Source of the DNA: Dehalococcoidales bacterium
Lineage (GTDB): Bacteria; Chloroflexota; Dehalococcoidia; Dehalococcoidales; JAFGLR01
NCBI GenBank assembly: GCA_016927955.1
Contig: JAFGLR010000024.1
Span: 1 to 35,377, forward strand
Length of the DNA stretch: 35,377 nucleotides
Direction of reading: 5' to 3'
The notes under the pieces were generated by a model. It did not search any database. It saw nothing but the letters and a program-made list of their open reading frames with translations, and was not told the origin of the DNA. Every line of letters begins with the position of its first letter. Position 1 is the first letter of the stretch. Below, piece by piece: positions 4,236-18,591 of this stretch. Both the position numbers and the translations under genes were made by a program.

Positions 4236-4616
4236 CTATATTTCGTTGTCAGCTTTTTGTAATGTATCGCAGATAACTTTTTCGAGTTCATCCGGGGCGA
4301 TAGGCTTAATGAGGTAGTCGATAGCTCCAAGTTTCTTCGCCTCGGCTGTGGTCTCTTCGGAGGGATAGGCGGTGATGATGATGGACTTTATCCCCGGCTT
4401 TAGCGCTTTTACCTCTTTCAAGACCTCAAGGCCGGTTTTCCCCGGCAGTCTGATATCGAGAATAACAACGCCAAAGTCCTGTTTACTCATCATTTCCTGA
4501 GCTTCCTCGCCGGTTTCAGTAGTAGTCACCTCGTAACCGGCATCCGTGAGCCAGTCCTTTATCGATTCTCTAACAATAGCTTCATCATCAACAATCAATA
4601 TTCTACTTTTAGGCAT
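4236..4616 (-). CDS. Receiver-domain-only response regulator
   Basis: MPKSRILIVDDEAIVRESIKDWL...VVILDIRLPGKTGLEV...IITAYPS...DYLIKPI; start set at 4616 with RBS GGGGAGGTTC (ORF track over-extends to 4709). Confidence 0.9.
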   Translation of the reverse strand: MPKSRILIVDDEAIVRESIKDWLTDAGYEVTTTETGEEAQEMMSKQDFGVVILDIRLPGKTGLEVLKEVKALKPGIKSIIITAYPSEETTAEAKKLGAIDYLIKPIAPDELEKVICDTLQKADNEI

Positions 4617-4639
4617 TTTAGAACCTCCCCATTTTTCTT

Positions 4640-5128
4640 TCAGGGTTTTACTGTAATATTCGATGGGTCTAACCATAAACCAAGTTCCCTGGCTATCATA
4701 CTTAAGCAAACCGGTATAGCATCTGCGACTTCGGGAGTCAGTGCTTCGCTAAATGTACTCACATCCGCTGCTTCAATAGCAAAGATATCTATTTGTTGCG
4801 GTAGGTTGAGACCAAGTTGTTTCCCAAGTTGGACTATATCTACTAGACTGGCACTATGGCAGTGGGTAATATGTTCACTTGCTTTGAGTTCATCGGGTTT
4901 CAGATGATAAATATAGCCTGCTTTACCTTCCTTGGTTTGTATTGCATCGATGATGACGGCTCTATCATAGTCAAGCAGCAATTGAAGTAAATTGAGTCCT
5001 GAGGAACTGGATTCGATTATCGTAACTCCTTTATCATTAATTATATCCTGTAACTCACAGGCAATTTTTATCCCTATGCTATCATCACTGAGGATAGGAT
5101 TACCGAGACCTAGTATAAGAGTATTCAT
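4640..5128 (-). CDS. Hydrogenase maturation protease (M52 / HycI-HoxM family)
   Basis: MNTLILGLGNPILSDDSIGIKIACEL...AVIIDAIQTKEGKAGYIY typical of [NiFe] maturation endopeptidases. Confidence 0.87.
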   Translation of the reverse strand: MNTLILGLGNPILSDDSIGIKIACELQDIINDKGVTIIESSSSGLNLLQLLLDYDRAVIIDAIQTKEGKAGYIYHLKPDELKASEHITHCHSASLVDIVQLGKQLGLNLPQQIDIFAIEAADVSTFSEALTPEVADAIPVCLSMIARELGLWLDPSNITVKP

Positions 5129-5202: not shown

Positions 5203-7272
5203 CTATTTTTCGTCTATTTCGATATGCAGTGGTAGGTAAATTGTAAAAGTTGTACCATCGCCTATCTTACTTCGCACTTCTATTTTACCCTTATGGCGCT
5301 GTACTATTCCGTAGGCTATCGCGAGGCCTAAGCCTACACCCTTTACTTCCAGTTTGGTGGTAAAGAAGGGGGTAAACAACTTATTCATATTTTCCGGAGG
5401 AATTCCGATGCCAGTGTCCGAAACTTCAATCTTTATTTGGTTTGCACTTGCTGAAGAACGAAGAGTTAATTTCCCGCCTTGTGGCATTGCTTGGATGGCA
5501 TTTAAAATTAGATTGGTAAATACCTGCTGCAGTTGATCTGCGTCTGCCGTTATATCAGGTAATGCGGGGTCGAGTTCTTTTATTACCCGCACATGCTGCA
5601 ACTCCGCGGAATGAGAAGCAATGTCATAAGCCCGGTTCATAATCATATTAAGATTAGCTTGCTGGAATTTAGGCGATGACTGACGTGCGAAATCCAGTAA
5701 ATTTTTAATTAACTTAGTACTACGAATAAGTTCAAACTCCATCTTGGATAAATATTCGAGGGTAGTATTATTATCAATTTTACTTTCTTTTATTTTCTTG
5801 GCTATAAGCTGAGTATAAATAAGAACTCCGGACAGGGGATTATTTACTTCATGAGCAATAGATGCCGCCAGTTGGCCTAAAGATGTTAATTTCTCAGCCT
5901 GGATAAGCTGCTGTTGGCTGTTTTTCAACTGCTGAATTGATTCGCTGAGCTCCTGGTAAGCTTTACTCAGCTGTAATTGCATTTCTTTTTCTTTAGTTAC
6001 ATCCCTAGCAATACAAAGAAAACCAATGAGTTTCCCATCCTCTCTTATTAAGTTGGTAGTTAACATTAAAATCCATTCCGTTCCGTCTTTTCTAACCAGC
6101 CGCTGTTCATATGGTTGCTCATCTGTACTTCCATCTAATAACTTGTTTCTTATTTGACCGGCTAGTTGGAGGCTTTCCTCAGTTAAAAAAGTCCTCACAT
6201 TCATACCGATTAATTCTTCTAAACTGTAACCGCTAAGTGTCTCCGTAGCTTTATTCACCGTAGTCAAATAACCTTCCATATCGTGTACCCAGATTGCATC
6301 CTGAGCACTTTCAAATAGCTCGCGGTATCGTTGTTCTGATATACGCAGCTTCTCGGCGACCTCTATCTCCCTTTGGAATAACATCGCGTTTTCCGTCGCC
6401 GCACTAATCTGGTTGCCTATTACTGCCAATAGCTCAACTTCCTCATTATCAAAATACCGCCGGCTTTTTGACTGTACGCCTAACGTGCCTATCGGCTTCC
6501 CTTTAACACTCAGCGGAACTACAATTCTCGTCTCTTTAGATACATCCTCAACTAGCATAGGCTGCCCGGTATTGACCACTTTTTTATTGATACCAGACTC
6601 AGCCTCAACTCTAATAAGGTCTTGATAATTCCCTCCGTATGCTGCCAATGTTAGCCCTGAATTATCCCTGCCCAGCAAGTATATCCACGCGGCATCAACC
6701 CGTAATAAACCGATAATACTGCTAACAGCATTATCTAAAATCTGGCTCATTTCCTGTGATTGGGAGACTGTAGTGGAAATGCGGCTTATCGTCACCAGCT
6801 GTCTTTCTATTCTCTCGGAAGCTATAGCTTGAGATTGTAATTCTTCATGAGTCTTCTCAATAGTCGATAGTATTCTCCGTTGCTTCTCTTTTTCGCTTCT
6901 GTAGCTGTGAAACCACAGGTTTATCATCCAACCGATAAAAACTATTACAATAGTTTCAAACAAAGCGTCTGAAAAAAAATTCGAGATTAAGAAAACGCGG
7001 GGTAGCATGATGATCGTAGCAACGGCTAAACTGACTAAGCCCACCCTAATGCCGAAAAAAAAGCCGGCATAACCGATAGGCAGCAAAAGAAAAATTCTTT
7101 CTACAGCATGACGGCTTAAACCCAAAAAAGAAAACAGCGATGGTGAATCCAAGGAGAGAAGCTGCTGTGGATAATGCAGGATAACACCAACTATGAATAG
7201 TATCACTACCACCCAGAGGTGAAAATGAGGTATTGTTGCGGGTATATTTTTTATTCTATCTACGATATTCAT
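5203..7272 (-). CDS. Membrane sensor histidine kinase (N-terminal TM segment, GAF, PAS, HisKA, HATPase_c)
   Basis: Hydrophobic N-terminus; GAF-like region; PAS (RYRELFESAQDAIWVHDMEGYLTTVNKA); SLGQLAASIAHEVNNPLSGVL H-box; DTGIGIPPENMNKLFTPFFTTK and GVGLGLAIAYGIV ATPase boxes. Confidence 0.92.
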   Translation of the reverse strand: MNIVDRIKNIPATIPHFHLWVVVILFIVGVILHYPQQLLSLDSPSLFSFLGLSRHAVERIFLLLPIGYAGFFFGIRVGLVSLAVATIIMLPRVFLISNFFSDALFETIVIVFIGWMINLWFHSYRSEKEKQRRILSTIEKTHEELQSQAIASERIERQLVTISRISTTVSQSQEMSQILDNAVSSIIGLLRVDAAWIYLLGRDNSGLTLAAYGGNYQDLIRVEAESGINKKVVNTGQPMLVEDVSKETRIVVPLSVKGKPIGTLGVQSKSRRYFDNEEVELLAVIGNQISAATENAMLFQREIEVAEKLRISEQRYRELFESAQDAIWVHDMEGYLTTVNKATETLSGYSLEELIGMNVRTFLTEESLQLAGQIRNKLLDGSTDEQPYEQRLVRKDGTEWILMLTTNLIREDGKLIGFLCIARDVTKEKEMQLQLSKAYQELSESIQQLKNSQQQLIQAEKLTSLGQLAASIAHEVNNPLSGVLIYTQLIAKKIKESKIDNNTTLEYLSKMEFELIRSTKLIKNLLDFARQSSPKFQQANLNMIMNRAYDIASHSAELQHVRVIKELDPALPDITADADQLQQVFTNLILNAIQAMPQGGKLTLRSSASANQIKIEVSDTGIGIPPENMNKLFTPFFTTKLEVKGVGLGLAIAYGIVQRHKGKIEVRSKIGDGTTFTIYLPLHIEIDEK

Positions 7273-8053: not shown

Positions 8054-9511
8054 TCACCCGAGCTTTCTTAAAAGGTTGCCTCGAGAGTTATAAACATATA
8101 TAGGTACCGGTGAACTACCATTAAGACTATGGGTCGCACAGGCGAGACAGAGGTCATACGGACGCCAGGCCATTTCCACCAGGTTCAATATTCCTTCGGT
8201 AATTTCCTTACCCGGTTGTATAACATACTTGGCAGCTTTGCCTACGGACATGTTTACGGCAGCTGCATTATGAACCGTAGCTACGATAAGATTTGTCTTT
8301 TTAATAACTCCCTTCTCATCGGTAATATAATGGTGTATAAGCGTTCCGCGCGGTGCTTCGAGAACGCCTATTCCTTCATCCGGTTTGGCGGTCGGTATCC
8401 TACGAATGTCCGGACTGGTAATCTCGGGGTCTCGGCTCAATTCCAGAAGCCGCTCAGCAGCTTGGAGAAGTTCAATAAGACGTGCCCAATGCGTTGCCAA
8501 AGTATGATGAACAGGCTTTCCTCCTAATGTTGCGAAGTATTTTTCGTAGTGTTCCTGAGCCAGTGGCGTTGCCATACCATCTGCAGCATTTAGTCTGGCC
8601 AGCGGAGCCACACGGAACACACCGCTATCAATCCCATCGACAAACCCTTTCCACCCCACTTTTTTCAAGAAGGGGAATTTTATATATGACCAGGGCTCTA
8701 CATGCTCCGCAATATGGTCGAGGTAATCTTTTGGAGCGAATTTGGCAAACTCTTTGCCGGTAGGATCAACTACTCTAAGCATTCCGTCATAGAAATTAAC
8801 CTTATTATTTGCATCTACCAATCCCATATAATAAGTGTTATGAGTGTATCCATCGCTAAGTATTAAATCTACATAAGCTTTGTTCTTCAAAACTATGTCA
8901 TCGAATACCTTTAGTGATAACTTGGCAAATTCTACTGATTCCAGGGCGATCTCTTCGATTTCTTTTCTTTCATCTTCTTTAAGTGCCTTACTGACACCTC
9001 CGGGAAGACCGAAAACCGGGTGGACGCCACGTCCGCCGATCTTTTCAATGATATGGTGATTCCTCATTCTGGTTTTTATTACAGCGCCCCCTAGTTCAAG
9101 CCCGACTTTCGCTATAACACCAATAATGTTACGTTCGGCTACCGGTGCATCGGGCCCCATTACAAAGTCAGGACCACCCAGAATGTAGAAATGGGTCGTG
9201 TGGTCGGTAACGTAAAAAGCATTGTACAGAAGTTCACGTAACTTCTTCGCCGGGCTGGGTGGGTCAACATGAAACAGGGCATCAAGAGTCTTTGTCGAAG
9301 CCAGATGATGTGCTTCTGGACAGACTCCGCAGATTCTCTGGGTAATCTGGGGCATATCTTCAGCCAGGCGGCCTTCAGTGAACTTTTCAAAGCCCCTTAG
9401 TTCAGGTACCTGAAAATACGTATTTGCGACTTCTCCGTTATCATTGAGGAAAATCTCTATTTTCCCGTGGCCTTCTAGACGAGTTATCGGATCGATGCTT
9501 ATCTTTCTCAT
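8054..9511 (-). CDS. mvhA: F420-non-reducing-type (group 3c) [NiFe] hydrogenase large subunit MvhA-like
   Basis: N-terminal RICGVCPEAHH, C-terminal DLCLACATHS plus a cleavable tail; beside MvhG/MvhD/Hdr homologs. Confidence 0.92.
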   Translation of the reverse strand: MRKISIDPITRLEGHGKIEIFLNDNGEVANTYFQVPELRGFEKFTEGRLAEDMPQITQRICGVCPEAHHLASTKTLDALFHVDPPSPAKKLRELLYNAFYVTDHTTHFYILGGPDFVMGPDAPVAERNIIGVIAKVGLELGGAVIKTRMRNHHIIEKIGGRGVHPVFGLPGGVSKALKEDERKEIEEIALESVEFAKLSLKVFDDIVLKNKAYVDLILSDGYTHNTYYMGLVDANNKVNFYDGMLRVVDPTGKEFAKFAPKDYLDHIAEHVEPWSYIKFPFLKKVGWKGFVDGIDSGVFRVAPLARLNAADGMATPLAQEHYEKYFATLGGKPVHHTLATHWARLIELLQAAERLLELSRDPEITSPDIRRIPTAKPDEGIGVLEAPRGTLIHHYITDEKGVIKKTNLIVATVHNAAAVNMSVGKAAKYVIQPGKEITEGILNLVEMAWRPYDLCLACATHSLNGSSPVPIYVYNSRGNLLRKLG

Positions 9512-10467
9512 TTAATTTTAGCCCTCCTCAATAATGACTCCGGAACAGAATACCTGTAAAAAGTTCCGGCCGGGTCGGCAATATCTTCGATTATTTTATT
9601 TATCTCATCCGGGTCGGTCGAATCGATAACCGAGGCTACAGCATTCATAAAATGGCTTCCTTGATCGATTACCCCGCTCACCGGTCCATAACAACCTGTA
9701 CATGGCATATTCGACTGGGGGCAGGGAGCACCGCAACCACCCCGTGTTGCCATACCGGCACAAAGAAGCCCTTGCTCCAACAAGCAAATTTCCGGGTCGG
9801 GAATAATCTGAAAAGGCCGGTAGAACCTGGTGACTTTTTTTACATCCTTTTTCCGTGGACAATCATCACAGACGGCTTTTACATTATCCGTAATTACGGT
9901 TCCCTTAGGCGGTAACTTGTTTTGAATCAATGCCTCCAGGGCAAGCCACGTCGTTTTTGCTTCCGGCGGACAGCCGGGAATTATATAATCGACTTCCACA
10001 GTCTGCGGTAGAGTTTTCACAGTATCATAAAATTCAGGTAGAGTAAGCGTCCCTTCGGGAACTTTGTAGCTTGTTTGAGGTATCGTTTTTGCTTCGTTAG
10101 CTGTCGATTGTGTTTCCAAATATGCCCGCTCAAAAATCATATCGCGGTTAAAAAAATTACCCAATCCGGGAATACCGCCGTTTTGAGCACAGGCTCCGTA
10201 AGATATCATCACCTTGGACTTTTCCCGCAGCATTTTAGCCATATGTTCCTGTTCGGAAGTCCGGATAGCCCCGTTAAACAGGCAGACATCGACACTTTTT
10301 TCCGGCATTGCCTCAATATCTTTATATTTTACATCTATAGCTACCGGCCAAAATACTATGTCCGCCACCTCAATTAGTTTTAATAGTTTCTCCCCAATTT
10401 GAAGCTGAGCAATTTCACAGCCGCCGCAACTGGAAGCCCAATATAGAGCCAATTTAATTTTTGCCAT
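9508..10467 (-). CDS. mvhG: [NiFe] hydrogenase small subunit MvhG-like
   Basis: WASSCGGCEIAQLQIGEKLL; IPGCPPEAKTTWLALEAL; CGAPCPQSNMPCTGCYGP FeS ligands; overlaps mvhA start by 4 bp. Confidence 0.9.
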   Translation of the reverse strand: MAKIKLALYWASSCGGCEIAQLQIGEKLLKLIEVADIVFWPVAIDVKYKDIEAMPEKSVDVCLFNGAIRTSEQEHMAKMLREKSKVMISYGACAQNGGIPGLGNFFNRDMIFERAYLETQSTANEAKTIPQTSYKVPEGTLTLPEFYDTVKTLPQTVEVDYIIPGCPPEAKTTWLALEALIQNKLPPKGTVITDNVKAVCDDCPRKKDVKKVTRFYRPFQIIPDPEICLLEQGLLCAGMATRGGCGAPCPQSNMPCTGCYGPVSGVIDQGSHFMNAVASVIDSTDPDEINKIIEDIADPAGTFYRYSVPESLLRRAKIK

Positions 10468-10885
10468 GATTACCCTCCGTGTTATTAGTTGCGAAAGGTC
10501 CCAGAGCCCTGACTTCCTCGGTCATCTCATTGACAACTTGAGCGTATTTTTCCCCTTCCGACGCTGAAACCCAATCCAGCCGAACCCTGCCTTCTTCTAT
10601 ACCGAATTGGGCTAACATCTTTTTGAGCAATGGTATTCGGCGCATTGTTTTATAATTTCCCTCGACATAATGGCAATCACCCGGATGACAACCTAAAATA
10701 AGGACTCCATCAGCTCCGGACTTAAAGGCCTTCAAAATAAAGTCCGGCTCTACCCTCGTACTACAGGGGACTCTGATTATTTTTACATTCGGCGCGAATT
10801 TCAACCTGCTCGTCCCTGCTAAATCAGCACCGCGGTAAGAACACCAGTTACATAAGAAGCCAACGATTTTCGGTTCCCAACTCAT
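10454..10885 (-). CDS. mvhD: MvhD-like electron-transfer [2Fe-2S] subunit
   Basis: PKIVGFLCNWCSYRGADLAGTSRLKF...RVPCSTRVEPDFILKAFKSGADGVLILGCHPGDCHY. Confidence 0.92.
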   Translation of the reverse strand: MSWEPKIVGFLCNWCSYRGADLAGTSRLKFAPNVKIIRVPCSTRVEPDFILKAFKSGADGVLILGCHPGDCHYVEGNYKTMRRIPLLKKMLAQFGIEEGRVRLDWVSASEGEKYAQVVNEMTEEVRALGPFATNNTEGNHGKN

Positions 10886-10896
10886 GGTTTTACCTC

Positions 10897-11775
10897 CTAA
10901 ACTCGTACCTGTAAATAAGGTTCTATGGCTTTTCGTACCGGAGATATATTTTTATCCAGTCCTAATTCAACCGGGTTAATTCCGAAAGCAATGCCCATTA
11001 GCTGGGTAAGAGCCATAATTGGCATCTTAAAATTAGTTCCGTTCCGGCTTTTAATACGGCCCTGGTTGGCGTCTAAATTGGTAAAACATAGCGGGCATAA
11101 TGTTGTCGATATGCACTCACCGCCATGCCGCTGTACATCATCGAGTATTTTATAAAGCAATTTGTAGACCATATCTTTCTGGCTGAAAAGCTGGGCTCCA
11201 CCACAGCACTGGGCTTTTAGCGGGAAGAAAACAGATTCTGCTCCTAATCTTTCGGCTATCTGGTCCTGCCAAACGGGAAACTCGAAATCATCCGGACCGA
11301 ACGGTCTTGACTGATGACACCCGTAATAACTGGACACCTTGAGACCTTTGAGAGGGTAGCGTACTTTCGCGGCGATAACATCCAGACCGATATCGTTAAC
11401 GAAAACGTCTACCAGGTTACGTATGCGTGCCGTTCCTTCATAACGAAGGTCGGATGCTGCTAGAGCTTTCTTGACCTGATCCCTTACTCTCGGGTCGCTG
11501 GTGAAAGCTACATGAGCGCTCATTAGGTTCCGGTAGCAGCAACTGCACGGTACTACGATATCAAGACCGAGTTTTTCTGCCAGTACCAGGTTACGACTAG
11601 CCATTGCCACTGCTGCGAGTTCATTAATTGATTCACCGGGACACCCGCAACAGGTCCAATCAGGTAATTCTATAAGCTCAATGTCCAATACCTTAGCTAT
11701 TGCATCGATAGATGATTGAATAGGTTTACCGGTGGTCTCCATCGCACAGCCGGGGTAATAAGTATACCGCTTCAT
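10897..11775 (-). CDS. hdrB: Heterodisulfide reductase subunit B-like (two CCG domains)
   Basis: YYPGCAMETTGK...WTCCGCPGES...CSCCYRN and YYGCHQSRPF...QCCGGAQ...CPLCFTNLD. Confidence 0.92.
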   Translation of the reverse strand: MKRYTYYPGCAMETTGKPIQSSIDAIAKVLDIELIELPDWTCCGCPGESINELAAVAMASRNLVLAEKLGLDIVVPCSCCYRNLMSAHVAFTSDPRVRDQVKKALAASDLRYEGTARIRNLVDVFVNDIGLDVIAAKVRYPLKGLKVSSYYGCHQSRPFGPDDFEFPVWQDQIAERLGAESVFFPLKAQCCGGAQLFSQKDMVYKLLYKILDDVQRHGGECISTTLCPLCFTNLDANQGRIKSRNGTNFKMPIMALTQLMGIAFGINPVELGLDKNISPVRKAIEPYLQVRV

Positions 11776-12344
11776 TATTTACCTCCTGCCTTTTGCATTT
11801 CATGCACTCTATTCATAATGGCAGCAACTTCTTTGCCGCCTTTGACTTTACGAGGCGGTAATATCGGCATGAGTCCGCGGGTAACCAAAGACCATGCCAG
11901 CCCTATATTTTTAAAGCCCAAGAGAATATTCGAGGGTAAATAAAACCGCAGTGCCATCCCTAATTCCCAGACCCGTCCCTGCTTCATCGCTTCACGGAGA
12001 CTCCGGAATAGTTTTAACGTCGGCGTCTTAGGCCGGTACCCTTCGCGTTCTGCAATCGCCTCTACAGCGTGAATCAGTTGTGTAGGGTTAATTCCCCTTG
12101 GACACCTTACCGTACACAGATAGCAGGTAACGCAATTGAATACAGAGCTGCTTGAAAGAACCTCTTCTCTTTTACCTGCACGAATCATAGCGATGATTTT
12201 GCGCGGCGGGTATTGCCACCACTCAACGGTGGTACAGGAACCGCTGCAAACGCCGCACTGAATACACTCATTAATTTTCTCGCCCCCCGGTTCAGCGGCA
12301 ACTTCATCTACGAATGTCTTGGCTCCCCTGATTGTCGTCGGCAT
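11775..12344 (-). CDS. hdrC: Heterodisulfide reductase subunit C-like
   Basis: CIQCGVCSGSC and CVTCYLCTVRCPRGINP 4Fe-4S motifs; start set at 12344 (MPTTIRGAK) with upstream AAAGGAG. Confidence 0.9.
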   Translation of the reverse strand: MPTTIRGAKTFVDEVAAEPGGEKINECIQCGVCSGSCTTVEWWQYPPRKIIAMIRAGKREEVLSSSSVFNCVTCYLCTVRCPRGINPTQLIHAVEAIAEREGYRPKTPTLKLFRSLREAMKQGRVWELGMALRFYLPSNILLGFKNIGLAWSLVTRGLMPILPPRKVKGGKEVAAIMNRVHEMQKAGGK

Positions 12345-12383
12345 CCATACACTCTCCTTTCGTAGTTTATTATTTCGCATTAA

Positions 12384-15300
12384 CTACGCCAGTATTCCTT
12401 CAATTTCGGCCATGATTTCTTCCGTGGTATAGTGCTTATGCTTAATTGCACTACTCGGGCAAGCGGATACGCACGCACCGCAACCTTTACAAAGGGCCTC
12501 GTTAATCCGCGATACTTTCTTGTCCTCGATGAAGGAAATCGCCGTGTAGGGACAAAGGGCATTACAGATACGGCAGCCGGAGCATTTATCTTCATCGATT
12601 TCGGCTGTGGTAGCTTCCGTTTCTACCTTCCCCTTACTGATTAACGCCAGTACTCTGGCGGCGGCTGCTGATGCCTGGGCCACGGTATCCGGAATATCTT
12701 TAGGCCCCTGGCAGCAACCAACCACAAATACGCCATCGGTCATCGTAGCTACCGGGTCCAATTTCGGATGCCTTTCAATGAAGAAGCCGCCGCTGCCGCA
12801 ACTAATATTGAACATCCGGGCAATATCCAGTGCATCCTTTTGCGGTTCCAGGGCCGTGCTGAGAATGACCATATCAACCGGTAGTCGTTCTCTCTCACCG
12901 ATTAAACTGTTCTCAAACTTGACGATTAATTTACCCTCTTCGTCAGCGTTTTCGGCAACATCGGTGATTTCACCGGGACGACCGCGATAAAAGATAGTCC
13001 CTTCTTTTAATACACGGTTGTAAAATTCCTCGAAGTTTTTGCCCGGACTCCTGATGTCAATGTAAAATTCGTATATTTCCGCATCGGGCAAATGCTCGCG
13101 AAGCAGGTGGGAAAACTTTAAGGAATACATACAGCAAACGCGGGAGCAATATTCGTGATGGTTAACATCCCGACTACCTACACAGTGTACTATAGCAACT
13201 TTATCCGGATGTTTCCCGTTTTTCAGTAATATATCCCCGCCTGTTGGACCGGTGGCACTCACCATACGCTCGAACTCAAGACTGGTAATAACATTATCCA
13301 GGCGTCCGTACCCGTATTGGGGAATAACCGAAGGGTCGAACTCCTTATAACCGGTCGACAGGATAATATTTCCTACATCGATTTCGACAATCTCCTCTTT
13401 CATTTCGTGGTGTACCGCTTTACGTTCGCAGGCTTTGACACATTCCATACACTCGGAGCAGACCGCACAATTTAAGCAGCGGTTAGCTTCTTCAACCGCC
13501 ATTACTTCATCAAACCCCGATTCTACCTCTTTAAAAGATTTAACTCTTTCGGGTACGGCTAAGGCTGGCATAGCAGCTCTTTTCTTTGTAACCGGATTCT
13601 TTCCGGGAATATCTTTCATACGCTGACGGTCGACCGGTCTTCCTTCTTTCATGTTCTTACCATGGAGGTACCTGCCAATAGAAATCGCTGCTTCTTTCCC
13701 GGCAGTAACCGCATCTATAACTGTTGCCGGCCCGGTAACCACATCACCGCCGGCAAAAATACCCTTAACCGAAGTTTCGAAGGTAATCGGGTCGGCAGTC
13801 ACGGTGCCGTTCTTAGCCAAACCGATTTCACCTGGTAATGACGTTTTATCCACGGTCTGCCCGGTAGCCATAATAACGGTATCTACATCAAGTTCGAATT
13901 CCGAACCCGGTACCGGTACCGGACTGCGGCGTCCGGAGCTATCTACTTTACCCAGTTCCATCTTGATACATCTGACCTTTGCCAGTTTCCCATTACGGGC
14001 AATCAACTCGGTAGGCGTTGCCAGGAATATTATCTTAACGCCCTCATGTATCATTTCATCTATTTCGCTGGGGATAGCCGGCATTTCAGCCCGGGTTCTT
14101 CGGTAAATTACGTTAACCTCCTTCGCTCCTAGCCGTAAAGAAGTCCGGGCTGCGTCAACTGCTGCATTACCTCCGCCGATGACCGCTACTTTATTCCCGA
14201 TATCTACTTTATTTCCGGTATTTACCTGCTTTAACAAATCGATAGCGTGCAAGACACCTTTAGTATCTTCTCCGGGGATATTCATTTTCTGGCTCATCCA
14301 GGCACCCGTAGCCATAAATACAGCTTTAAATCCCTGACTGAAGAGAGAATTAATGTCTTTGATAGGTGAATTTGTTAATACCTCAACCCCAAGTTCTTTG
14401 ATGTAATTAATTTCGTTATCCAGTACATCTTTCGGCAAACGGTAGGCTGGAATCCCGTATCTTAACATGCCGCCTGTTTCAGGGGCTGACTCAAAAACGG
14501 TAACCGGATAGCCTTCTTTAACCAGGTCATAGGCACAAGCAATACCTGCCGGCCCCGAACCGATAATTGCTACTTTTTCCTTCTTTGTCTTAGCTATTGG
14601 CTCAGCTTTTTCCCGGCCGTTTTTCAATTCGTAATCCGCCATGAACCTTTTCAAAGCTCTAATGGCAATAGGTTCATCGACTTTACCCCGTTCGCATTCG
14701 GTTTCACAGGGATGGGTACAGACTCTTCCGCAAACACCTGCAAAAGGCATTGTCCGGCGCAATACCTCGATGGCTTCTTTAAATTTGCCCTGCGAAATAA
14801 GTGCAATATACCCGTGAGCGTTAACGCCTGCCGGACAGGTTACCGAACATGGTGATTTACCTAATTTCTCTATTACATAGGCGCCTGGGACAGCCTGGGC
14901 AAACGGCCGGTAAACCGCTTTCCTCATGCTCAAATTCATATTGTATTCTGAGGGGACCGATACCGGGCATACCTTTTCACAATCCGAACAGCCGTTACAT
15001 TCTTTGAGGTCGATATACCTTGGTTTCTGGCGTATTTTTACCTTGAAATTACCGATAAAACCTGAAACCTGGGCTACTTCACTATAGCTCATTAATTTTA
15101 TATACGGATGTGAGCCTATCAGTGACATTTTGGGGGTGAGAATACAGGCTGAACAGTCCAGGGTGGGGAAGGTCTTATCAAGTTGAATCATATGTCCGCC
15201 GATACTCGGTTCTTTCTCAACGAGGTAGACCTGGTGTTCCGAATCGGCAATTTCCAGAGCTGCCTGAATACCGGCAACTCCTCCCCCGATAACCAGTGTG

Positions 15301-15728
15301 TTTGGATTAACCGGAACTTCTTTCGTTTCCAGGGGTTCCTGGAAATAAACACGTCTCACTGCGGCACTTATAAGGGCTTTTGCCTTTTCGGTCGCTTCAT
15401 CATGGTCAAGGGTAACCCAGGAAGCGTGCTCCCGTATGTTGGCCATCTCGAACAGGTACGGATTTAATCCGGCATCCTTTACGGCGCGGCGAAAGGTAGG
15501 TTCATGCATTTGGGGCGAGCAGGACGCTACTACGACGCGGTTGACGCCAAGATTTTTGATGTCATCTTTTATCATCCCCTGTCCCTGGTCGGAACACATG
15601 AACTTGTACTCGCGGGCGGCAACTACTGAATCGAGCCCTCCAGCATATTCGACTACTTTTGCTACGTCCACAACACCGCCGATATTGGTCCCGCAGTGGC
15701 ATACATATACGCCGATTTTCTGCTCCAT
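12384..15728 (-). CDS. hdrA: Heterodisulfide reductase subunit A-like with an internal GltD-like NAD(P)H:FAD module
   Basis: HdrA N-terminus VCHCGTNIGGVVD, GGGVAGIQAA, LDCSACILTPKM; insert with IIGSGPAGIACAYDLVKEGYPVTVFE, VIGGGNAAVDAARTSLRLGAKEVNVIYRRTRAEMPA, GIFAGGDVVTGPATVIDAVTAGKEAA; HdrA C-terminus HCVGSRDVNHHEYCSRVCC and two 4Fe-4S motifs. Confidence 0.92.
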   Translation of the reverse strand: MEQKIGVYVCHCGTNIGGVVDVAKVVEYAGGLDSVVAAREYKFMCSDQGQGMIKDDIKNLGVNRVVVASCSPQMHEPTFRRAVKDAGLNPYLFEMANIREHASWVTLDHDEATEKAKALISAAVRRVYFQEPLETKEVPVNPNTLVIGGGVAGIQAALEIADSEHQVYLVEKEPSIGGHMIQLDKTFPTLDCSACILTPKMSLIGSHPYIKLMSYSEVAQVSGFIGNFKVKIRQKPRYIDLKECNGCSDCEKVCPVSVPSEYNMNLSMRKAVYRPFAQAVPGAYVIEKLGKSPCSVTCPAGVNAHGYIALISQGKFKEAIEVLRRTMPFAGVCGRVCTHPCETECERGKVDEPIAIRALKRFMADYELKNGREKAEPIAKTKKEKVAIIGSGPAGIACAYDLVKEGYPVTVFESAPETGGMLRYGIPAYRLPKDVLDNEINYIKELGVEVLTNSPIKDINSLFSQGFKAVFMATGAWMSQKMNIPGEDTKGVLHAIDLLKQVNTGNKVDIGNKVAVIGGGNAAVDAARTSLRLGAKEVNVIYRRTRAEMPAIPSEIDEMIHEGVKIIFLATPTELIARNGKLAKVRCIKMELGKVDSSGRRSPVPVPGSEFELDVDTVIMATGQTVDKTSLPGEIGLAKNGTVTADPITFETSVKGIFAGGDVVTGPATVIDAVTAGKEAAISIGRYLHGKNMKEGRPVDRQRMKDIPGKNPVTKKRAAMPALAVPERVKSFKEVESGFDEVMAVEEANRCLNCAVCSECMECVKACERKAVHHEMKEEIVEIDVGNIILSTGYKEFDPSVIPQYGYGRLDNVITSLEFERMVSATGPTGGDILLKNGKHPDKVAIVHCVGSRDVNHHEYCSRVCCMYSLKFSHLLREHLPDAEIYEFYIDIRSPGKNFEEFYNRVLKEGTIFYRGRPGEITDVAENADEEGKLIVKFENSLIGERERLPVDMVILSTALEPQKDALDIARMFNISCGSGGFFIERHPKLDPVATMTDGVFVVGCCQGPKDIPDTVAQASAAAARVLALISKGKVETEATTAEIDEDKCSGCRICNALCPYTAISFIEDKKVSRINEALCKGCGACVSACPSSAIKHKHYTTEEIMAEIEGILA
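13430..14880 (-). other. GltD/NfnB-like domain insertion inside HdrA (approximate boundaries)
   Basis: Codons about 285-765: CxxTCPAGVNAHGYIALISQGKFKEAIEVLRRTMPFAGVCGRVCTHPCETECERG... to ...EEANRCLNCAVCSECMECVKAC. Confidence 0.8.
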
Positions 15729-15790
15729 CTATTCCCTCCTGAATCAGTTTAAGAGAAACTTAATAAATAAATTATCGCCTAACTCGGCGC

Positions 15791-16270
15791 TTACATAAGT
15801 TTTTCAAGCTGGTCTGGGGAGAAAGGTTTAACCAAATAATCGGCAGCCCCGGCTTTCATTGCCTTGACCGCCAAGTCTATAGAAGGATAGGCAGTGATAA
15901 TAATAGATTTAATATGTGGTTTTAATTCTTTAACTTCTTTTAATACTTGAAGCCCGCTTTTCCCGGTGAGCTTAACATCTATAACCATTACATCAAAATC
16001 TTGTTTTTTAATCATGTCCAGTGCTTTCTCACCGGACTCAACGGCAGTTACTTCATAACCATCCTTTAACCAGTCTGTTAAGGAATCACGCATTATTTTT
16101 TCATCATCAACAATAAGGACGGACTGTTTCCTACCAGGCCGTCCTTCGATATTATCATTTACTAATTTGGTAATATATTCCTGCATCGAAATACCTTCGT
16201 AAGCACACTTAACCTTCAACTTGGTATAGAGCTCTAAGGGTATTTTTATATGTATGTCTCTCAGGTCCAT
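15791..16270 (-). CDS. Ribbon-helix-helix - receiver (RHH-REC) fusion response regulator
   Basis: N-terminus MDLRDIHIKIPLELYTKLKVKCAYEGISMQEYITKLVNDNIE fits an Arc/CopG/MetJ-type RHH; then SVLIVDDEKIMRDSL...VMVIDVKLTGKSGL...IITAYPS...DYLVKPFSPDQLEKLM*. Confidence 0.85.
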   Translation of the reverse strand: MDLRDIHIKIPLELYTKLKVKCAYEGISMQEYITKLVNDNIEGRPGRKQSVLIVDDEKIMRDSLTDWLKDGYEVTAVESGEKALDMIKKQDFDVMVIDVKLTGKSGLQVLKEVKELKPHIKSIIITAYPSIDLAVKAMKAGAADYLVKPFSPDQLEKLM

Positions 16271-16283
16271 ATTACTTACCTAA

Positions 16284-16315
16284 GTGTACATTTGTACTAA
16301 GGTACTAATGTACAC
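16284..16315. promoter_or_regulatory. Candidate RHH operator: four tandem 8-bp GTAC boxes in a 32-bp near-palindrome
   Basis: GTGTACAT|TTGTACTA|AGGTACTA|ATGTACAC; GTAC cores at 16286, 16294, 16302 and 16310 (exact 8-bp period); outer arms GTGTACATT/AATGTACAC; 14 bp upstream of the RHH-REC start codon. Confidence 0.75.
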
Positions 16316-16320
16316 GCATA

Positions 16321-16348
16321 ATTTTATAGTATATTATCATTAAGTCAA
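16321..16348 (-). promoter_or_regulatory. Putative sigma70-like promoter for the RHH-REC/hdr/mvh operon
   Basis: Minus strand TTGACT (16348-16343), 16-bp spacer, TAAAAT (16326-16321), immediately upstream of the GTAC array. Confidence 0.5.
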
Positions 16349-16666
16349 AGAAAAATCAAGGGGTTTAAGAAAATATTTTTAGGGATTTTCGTAAAAGATT
16401 TTTACCTAGGAAATAATATTATGAATATATTTCGTAGAATAAAAGGGGAAGAATTTAAGTATAGTAAGCATGGGATTATTGACGTACTCTTGAAAGTTAA
16501 AAATTCTTAAACTAACCTAACCATGGTGTTTAAGCTCTTGTAAGTCCGAGATGAATTTTTACCTATGCACTGATATATCGCCACCTTGAAAGAGACGCTG
16601 TATACATAGACTGACTATAAATTTATCCAATAGATAAATTAAACAAAGATAAAAATAAAGTGGAAC

Positions 16667-16740
16667 TAGCGCATACCGGATTCGAACCGGTGATCTCGTC
16701 CTTGAGAGGGACGCGTCCTAGGCCGCTAGACGAATGCGCC
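16667..16740 (-). tRNA. tRNA-Glu (anticodon CTC)
   Basis: Minus strand GGCGCAT...CGTCC-CTCTCAA-GGACG anticodon arm, ACCGG-TTCGAAT-CCGGT T-arm, ATGCGCT + A discriminator; CCA not encoded. Confidence 0.93.
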
Positions 16741-16869
16741 ACATTTGAAAATACGGTTATTTAGCCCGTTGGGAAATCGGCTCTTTACTCACCAGCCGAT
16801 ATTGTTTATTATATCAGTAAGCCTGTAGTGGGGCAAACGGTCTTATTATTTACCGCGTCTGGAGATAAT

Positions 16870-18591
16870 ATGAGTCCAGCTGATGGGCACTTGATTTCAG
16901 TTGCCAGAGGTTTCCAATCTGCCGACCTTATTTTTAATAATGCCAGCATCGTTAATGTATTTTCCGGGGAAATCGAATACGGCAATGTGGCTGTTTTTAA
17001 CGGCCGGATTGTCGGTATCGGCGACTACCGTGACGCTAAAGAGGTAATCGACTTAAAAGGCAAATACCTGGTTCCCGGTCTGATTGACGGTCACGTGCAC
17101 CTGGAAAGCTCGATGCTGGATGTAGGGCAATATGCCCGTGCGGTAGTTTCTCACGGGACACTTGCCATTATCACCGACCTGCATGAAATTAGTAATGTCA
17201 GCGGGCTGGCTGGTATTCGCTATATTTTAAACGCGGCGCTTAATTTACCACTGGCTATCTATTTAATGGCGCCTTCCTGCGTCCCGGCGACCAATCTTGA
17301 GACATCGGGAGCGGTTATCGGTCCTGCCGAAATCCGAAAAATCCTCAAACTTAAGCAATGTATCGGTCTGGGTGAAATGATGAACTATCCCGGCGTACTT
17401 TTCAGGGATGCCGGTGTTCTGGAAAAAATTAATTCAGCTTCAGGTAAAGTCGTTGACGGGCATTCTCCGGGAGTCAAAGGTAAAGACTTAAATGCATATA
17501 TCGGAGCCGGTATTGCATCCGACCATGAGTCGGTATTGTTGGAAGAAGCCCGTGAAAAGTTAATGCGTGGTATGCACGTGATGATTCGGGAAGGGTCCTC
17601 AGAGAAAAATCTGGATACTCTTTTACCGTTGGTTACGGAAAGAACTTACCCCCGGTGTTTGTTTGTCGTTGACGACCGTAATTGTGTTGACTTACTTAAA
17701 GACGGTGATATGGATGCCGTCATTCGTAAAGCCATCCGAGGCGGTCTGGACCCTATACGGGCTGTACAATTAGCCACGATTAATGCGGCACAATATTTCC
17801 GTCTTAACTCGCTGGGGGCTATTGCTCCGGGTTATCTGGCTAACATGCTCGTCCTGGATGATTTAAAGAGTTTTAAAATTAACTCTGTCTATTATCGGGG
17901 TAATCTAGTCGCTAAACAGGGAAAAGCTCTTTTTGACGTTAATCAAAAGGCAGGCCGTGTTTTACGCCATACGGTAAAAGTGAAGCCATTTAACCTTAAA
18001 GCACTGGCACTTACGGCTTCAGGAGAACAAGAACCTGTTATCGAAGTCATACCCGGTCAGATTGTAACAAAAAAGACCTATGTATCAATGAAGCCAGTCG
18101 GAGGATTCATCCAGCCGGATATCGAACGTGATATACTTAAACTTGCGGTTATAGAACGCCATCAGGCTACCGGTAATATCGGTGTCGGTCTGGTAAAAGG
18201 CTTCGGATTAAAAAGAGGTGCGTTAGCTTCTTCCGTAGCCCATGATTCTCATAATATTGTTGTCGTCGGTACTAACGATATGGATATATCTCTTGCCGTT
18301 AAAGAAATCGAAAAGCTACAGGGCGGGCTGGTAGTAGTAGCCGATGGCAAAGTATTAGGGTCTTTGGCTCTCCCCGTTGCCGGATTACTATCCGACCAGC
18401 CGTTGGAGGAAGTTGTTAGTAATTTAAGTAAATTAGAGCAACAAGCCCTAGATTTGGGTTGTTCTTTACCGTCACCTTTCTCCACGTTATCGTTTTTAGC
18501 TTTACCGGTGATTCCGGAATTAAGGCTAACCGATTTGGGATTGGTGGATGTGATTGAATTTAAATTAATCAAACGCAGTAAGGAGTCTTAA
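16870..18591 (+). CDS. ade: Adenine deaminase
   Basis: GKYLVPGLIDGHVHLESSML, TDLHEISNVSG, GEMMNYPGV, VDGHSPGVKG, GIASDHESV, HDSHNIVVVGTND; ATG 16870 preceded by GGAGATA (ORF track starts at 16828). Confidence 0.9.
   Translation: MSPADGHLISVARGFQSADLIFNNASIVNVFSGEIEYGNVAVFNGRIVGIGDYRDAKEVIDLKGKYLVPGLIDGHVHLESSMLDVGQYARAVVSHGTLAIITDLHEISNVSGLAGIRYILNAALNLPLAIYLMAPSCVPATNLETSGAVIGPAEIRKILKLKQCIGLGEMMNYPGVLFRDAGVLEKINSASGKVVDGHSPGVKGKDLNAYIGAGIASDHESVLLEEAREKLMRGMHVMIREGSSEKNLDTLLPLVTERTYPRCLFVVDDRNCVDLLKDGDMDAVIRKAIRGGLDPIRAVQLATINAAQYFRLNSLGAIAPGYLANMLVLDDLKSFKINSVYYRGNLVAKQGKALFDVNQKAGRVLRHTVKVKPFNLKALALTASGEQEPVIEVIPGQIVTKKTYVSMKPVGGFIQPDIERDILKLAVIERHQATGNIGVGLVKGFGLKRGALASSVAHDSHNIVVVGTNDMDISLAVKEIEKLQGGLVVVADGKVLGSLALPVAGLLSDQPLEEVVSNLSKLEQQALDLGCSLPSPFSTLSFLALPVIPELRLTDLGLVDVIEFKLIKRSKES

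Follow-up and report, generated by a model that had tools for sequence, protein, structure and literature searches.

What is the function of four GTAC boxes, set at exact 8-bp intervals, at the head of a putative hdr/mvh operon? The window analysed here is a stretch of 35,377 nucleotides from a Dehalococcoidales bacterium, and the boxes occupy positions 16284 to 16315, immediately upstream of a gene whose product joins a ribbon-helix-helix (RHH) domain to a receiver (REC) domain. To judge from comparative sequence analysis, this array is very probably the operator of the adjacent RHH-REC regulator, and its role is most likely autorepression together with repression of the hdr/mvh genes. The features concerned are collected in Table 1.

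The array (GTGTACATTTGTACTAAGGTACTAATGTACAC) has GTAC cores at 16286, 16294, 16302 and 16310 (steps 8-8-8), and 13 bp separate it from the ATG of the RHH-REC gene at 16270. Both the four evenly spaced boxes and the near-palindrome of the original prediction were found again at exactly the same positions: the dyad is broken at 6 of 32 positions (10, 15-18 and 23), and an inverted repeat pairs 16284-16297 with 16302-16315 (93% complementary). When up to three mismatches are allowed, four tandem copies of GTACN4 match nowhere else in the window (0.05 matches expected); with up to two, the array is the sole match in the genome (2.29 Mb searched, approximately 92% complete), and the reversed-pattern control gives none. 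Among 393 genomes of the class, the fourfold GTAC pattern has other matches with up to one mismatch; these lie at other places and differ in composition (tandem repeats, for example), and a link to RHH genes was established for none. By these searches, the exact GTAC quadruplet and its near-palindrome are private to this genome.

Table 1. Coordinates of the candidate operator, the promoter-like site and the neighbouring genes in the window.
Feature	Positions	Strand	Basis or remark
Candidate operator array, four 8-bp boxes, GTAC cores, near-dyad	16284..16315	.	same phase upstream of other RHH genes
Promoter-like site TTGACT-16-TAAAAT	16321..16348	-	consensus match only
RHH-REC response regulator (RHH ~residues 4-42, REC ~50-157)	15791..16270	-	Pfam, ParG profile, alignments, AlphaFold
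hdrA (1114 aa, inserted GltD-like pyridine-nucleotide oxidoreductase region)	12384..15728	-	next gene of the putative operon
hdrC	11775..12380	-	TIGR03290 4.8e-21, below cut-off; synteny
hdrB	10897..11775	-	CCG domains; TIGR03288 3.8e-54, below cut-off
mvhD (FlpD)	10454..10885	-	PF02662 5e-55
mvhG, [NiFe] hydrogenase small subunit	9508..10467	-	annotation
mvhA, [NiFe] hydrogenase large subunit	8054..9511	-	annotation
Sensor histidine kinase, candidate RHH-REC partner	5203..7272	-	kinase after mvhA also in two relatives
Stand-alone REC protein	4236..4709	-	57% identity to RHH-REC residues 30-158

The protein encoded next to the array combines two recognizable domains. The receiver domain matches Response_reg of Pfam (1e-29) and retains the acidic pocket, the phosphoacceptor Asp, the Thr/Ser and the Lys: D56, D98, T126 and K148 are invariant in an alignment of 25 sequences. 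The N-terminal part shows the beta-helix-helix pattern of about 45 residues and the family matches of a ribbon-helix-helix domain, as had been predicted: the family profile matches the ParG structure 1p94 (E 7e-4) and, at E up to 0.1, Pfam recognizes RHH_10 in 9 of 10 members and ParG in 8 of 10. RHH families are weakly matched by a single sequence, and the RHH_10 and ParG matches of the window protein itself lie below the cut-off. In the AlphaFold model (pLDDT 88.8; REC confident), the RHH helices span residues 12-25 and 29-41, and the monomer has no formed beta-ribbon, as expected for a dimeric fold. A fold search with the full model had REC domains alone among the matches listed; with the RHH part alone there was no significant match, and most of the better matches were RHH proteins. 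At the ribbon positions, the alignments show D, Q or K at 5, an invariant H7, and K or R at 9; we take these three positions to be comparable to the Q-N-R triad of Arc.

Downstream of the regulator gene, 62 bp separate it from hdrA and no terminator-like site was found between the two; co-transcription is putative, and control of the hdr/mvh genes of the window would rest on it. The order RHH-REC, hdrA, hdrC, hdrB, mvhD, mvhG, mvhA, kinase is kept in two other genomes (G410 and G466). There, the kinase gene that follows mvhA is shorter (about 400 aa; L176 494-1693 and L200 18383-19582), and its product matches solely the N-terminal and C-terminal parts of the window kinase. In a further family (f51), the RHH-REC gene is divergent from hdrA, and mvhG and mvhA follow RHH-REC in most members, within the reach of the contigs. 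G321, G363, G377 and G846 have phased boxes on the hdrA side as well as near RHH-REC; in G232 the array is on the hdrA side alone.

Several observations concern the neighbouring genes themselves. The HdrA of the window carries its GltD/NfnB-like insert at about residues 291-690, which suggests NAD(P)H as electron partner. Two loci have a tandem pair of hdrA genes with very similar N-termini (L179 7024-12371; L202 1971-7297), the shorter one first (about 650 aa, without the GltD-like insert) and then the long one. The gene of the stand-alone REC protein overlaps, in another frame, the 3' end of a hydrogenase maturation protease gene (4640-5128, minus strand); this REC protein is a possible competing phosphoacceptor. 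Upstream of the array, and in the same orientation, is a tRNA-Glu gene (CTC; 16666-16741, minus strand), some 320 bp ahead of the promoter-like site.

That promoter-like site, read from 16348 to 16321, is the best such match on the strand of the RHH-REC gene. It agrees with the predicted placement of the array at or just downstream of the transcription start: this consensus match, as distinct from a mapped start, puts the start at about 16314, near the promoter-side edge of the array, which would then extend from about +1 to +32. The boxes closest to the RHH gene overlap, in the window and in most relatives, the -10/start region of TTGAC-type promoter-like matches, and the hdrA-side boxes of G232 overlap a promoter-like site that faces hdrA. 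Such overlap fits steric repression of the regulator gene and of the hdr/mvh genes.

The relatives used for comparison were gathered with a profile of the RHH domain by itself, which returned 13 more genes of this RHH type: one paralog in the same genome and, in other genomes of the class (probably Dehalococcoidia), 12 genes. With the window gene included, the set comprises 11 RHH-REC genes and three RHH-only genes (G086, G083 and G421). Among 400 sampled genomes of the phylum, the profile has no match outside the class; a search of genome contigs returned REC-only relatives and apparently no RHH-REC protein. The paralog (L185, G000:C22; 13807-14358 of its locus, minus strand) has a GTAT/ATAC array with steps 8-12-8. 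It is divergent from a metallo-beta-lactamase-like gene and lies near MTHFR-like and NuoE/NuoF-HdrA-like genes; possibly, it is a second regulator of this kind, for carbon/redox genes. The class also contains a second RHH family of small stand-alone proteins (HIRLPE..HK..R..AAE...IQDWV; L164, L166-L168, L190 and L191).

Upstream of 12 of these 13 genes, boxes of the types GTAC, GTAT or ATAC occur in 8-bp phase. The four-box arrays anticipated for related genomes thus divide into an exact GTAC form, found in this genome only, and the 8-bp phase, which is shared; orthologous loci do carry the phased array, once GTAC is relaxed to GTAC/GTAT/ATAC. With the window left out, 29 box pairs have a lag of 8 (1.04 expected), a number reached in none of 2000 shuffles (largest 6); an earlier run of this test covered 11 genes, the window included. 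Several relatives are closely related among themselves (G321/G363/G377; G410/G466), and the pairs were therefore also counted with a single gene from each clade, which gives 21 where 0.64 are expected, again a number reached in none of 2000 shuffles. The box set was chosen after some upstream regions had been viewed, a bias guarded against by a scan of all tetramers without a preset motif, in which ATAC/GTAT and GGTA rank first at lag 8.

The arrays vary in length, order and step. The steps are 8-8-8 in G232, 8-8 in G083 and G421, 8-8-12-8 in G363, and 8-16-8 in G086, where a degenerate TTAC stands at the omitted step; the order is GTAT-GTAT-ATAC-ATAC in the paralog and GTAT-ATAC-GTAT in G421. 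The RHH-proximal boxes of G410 and G466 consist of a GTAC/ATAC pair alone, G400 has a single phased pair, and the upstream region of G191, whose RHH domain is diverged, has no phased boxes. Further strong lags are 16, 20, 24, 28 and 32. Box distances of 12, 16, 20, 24, 28 and 32, all multiples of 4, were seen in several loci (L153, L176-L183 and L200-L202); 12-bp steps occur inside otherwise 8-bp arrays, and the spacing is sometimes 12 or 20, not 8.

Of 238 upstream regions in these loci, only those before an RHH gene, or before a divergent gene that shares its intergenic region, have at least two phased pairs. Arrays accompany the three RHH-only genes; none is found at 27 hdrA orthologs without a detected adjacent RHH gene (one of the 27 has a single pair), and inspection of the second RHH family, in which helix 2 has W instead of Y, revealed no phased GTAY array. 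Taken together, these results indicate that the array belongs to the RHH type of the window gene.

Across 55 phased boxes, the consensus is approximately WWWGGTAY followed by AT-rich bases, with 35 boxes of the GTAT/ATAC type versus 20 of GTAC. The family box is asymmetric (about GGTATATT), with a bias in its GG/CC side, and both orientations are in use. As far as these alignments go, what is conserved is the spacing of asymmetric GGTAY boxes in 8-bp phase, not the palindrome. A scan of the same genome with four RTAY boxes gave one extra match, of ATAT type, equal to the control count, and GGTAT x3 in 12 genomes stayed near control levels outside the RHH loci; consequently, no broad regulon is detected in these two scans or in that of the genome with GTAC x4.

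The preferred reading, to which we give a probability of about 83%, is that the array is the operator of the RHH-REC regulator, that its cooperative filling blocks RNA polymerase, so that the regulator gene and hdrACB-mvhDGA are repressed, and that phosphorylation of REC sets its occupancy. In such a mechanism, each 8-bp GTAY box would hold one dimer of RHH domains, with the beta-ribbons inserted in successive major grooves, and binding would be cooperative along the array. Since the array covers the predicted start region, once filled it would block RNA polymerase, leading to autorepression, and hdrACB-mvhDGA would be repressed through co-transcription with RHH-REC. Phosphorylation at D98, probably by the kinase encoded in the same window, would change dimer pairing or cooperativity. 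Binding itself, one dimer per box, repression as against activation, the kinase partner and the signal are all inferred.

A different sign of regulation is the alternative that deserves most attention: on the same operator, RHH-REC might act mainly as an activator, or its sign might be switched by phosphorylation. In G410, G466 and the paralog, some phased boxes are indeed remote from the gene, at positions of about -145 to -93 relative to its start, and the RHH protein AmrZ is described as both activator and repressor (PMC3325190). Nevertheless, in the window and in most relatives the RHH-proximal boxes lie over the -10/start region, where a bound protein is expected to block initiation, and we regard activation as unlikely. 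Considerably less probable is that another regulator binds the array and controls hdr/mvh, the RHH gene being near by coincidence. Binding of the array by RHH-REC is a prediction, which leaves room for such a protein; yet phased boxes also accompany RHH genes with no hdr/mvh neighbour found (G086, G083, G421 and G400), and no array is present at the 27 hdrA orthologs without a detected RHH neighbour.

The near-palindrome could also form a hairpin in the leader RNA and control translation or attenuation of RHH-REC, and the leader of the window indeed folds strongly (-15.4 kcal/mol, z -3.15). The leaders of the relatives, however, are mostly unremarkable (of 13, two have z <= -2.5 and two others about -2 to -2.4), many arrays are direct repeats, and Rfam over 15600-17000 shows a tRNA alone. 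The phase is kept without pairing; a spacing of 8 bp finds its explanation in the binding of a protein and not in a stem. A conserved RNA hairpin was accordingly rejected, being present in the window and not conserved in relatives, and this explanation is highly improbable. Finally, a chance cluster of GTAC, in favour of which the AT-richness of the intergenic DNA is the sole argument, has practically no probability and is refuted by the low expectation in the window, the uniqueness in the genome and the phase conserved across genomes.

To return to the predicted operator of a repressing RHH-REC protein, the usual terminal output of a response regulator is of the helix-turn-helix type or enzymatic. 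A ribbon-helix-helix domain placed directly on REC, with a phased operator across genomes, would add a type of output to this repertoire, and the number and spacing of boxes could then be compared with regulation. In characterised systems, Hdr-Mvh is electron-bifurcating; a candidate regulator and operator are here provided for such a hydrogenase operon in a lineage of largely uncultured bacteria. A more general proposal, that RHH-on-REC proteins constitute a distinct class of response regulators within one bacterial class, with 8-bp-phased GTAY arrays whose phosphorylation-tuned filling controls the Hdr-Mvh hydrogenase, has in our opinion slightly better than even odds. The novelty of a REC-RHH regulator is provisional: in the portion of the open-access literature consulted (subscription papers fall outside this scope), the one precedent is the RHH-HisKA-REC proteins of Lokiarchaeum (PMC5847659). 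The Lokiarchaeum proteins likewise have an Arc-type RHH in a REC-containing two-component protein, but their architecture is RHH-HisKA-REC, whereas in the window protein RHH is joined straight to REC; the passage that describes them names no operator.

Regarding the mode of DNA recognition, the original prediction took MetJ as its model. MetJ is an RHH repressor that binds cooperatively to tandem 8-bp palindromic boxes. The tandem 8-bp arrangement is indeed present, as 8-8-8 in the window and as a dominant lag of 8 in the relatives. Palindromic boxes and membership in the MetJ family did not hold: the family boxes are asymmetric for the most part (GTAT/ATAC in 35 of 55), and neither the Pfam nor the PDB comparisons of the RHH domain gave a MetJ match. 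The window looks MetJ-like because its GTAC boxes happen to be self-palindromic. The met box is quoted as GAGACGTCTC in PMC13379313. The input would differ too, being phosphorylation for RHH-REC and not S-adenosylmethionine.

Plasmid-encoded RHH proteins offer a closer parallel. The omega repressor of pSM19035 binds as one dimer per short repeat, with high affinity requiring at least two direct or inverted repeats, and its repeats overlap promoters (PMC9499535). Omega differs in its contiguous 7-bp WATCACW repeats, as compared to the 8-bp period and GTAY cores of the RHH-REC arrays. Among solved structures, ParG (plasmid TP228; parH, operator OF) is the nearest to the RHH family. ParG acts in plasmid partition with ParF as partner and has a flexible tail at its N-terminus, whereas RHH-REC has its RHH N-terminal to REC, a GTAY box and no ParF-like gene seen nearby (inspection of the window and of the sibling loci looked at recognised no ParA/ParF-like partner gene). 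The parH site of ParG is made up of tetramer boxes separated by AT-rich spacers (PMC7308502), and for omega as for ParG, direct and inverted repeats are equivalent as binding sites (PMC5016525). The RHH-REC arrays, in turn, consist of direct and inverted repeats that mostly overlap the promoter-like site of their own gene. Because the box is asymmetric, both orientations are used and ParG is closest to the RHH domain, the ParG/omega type is, on present comparisons, a better model than MetJ for the predicted operator.
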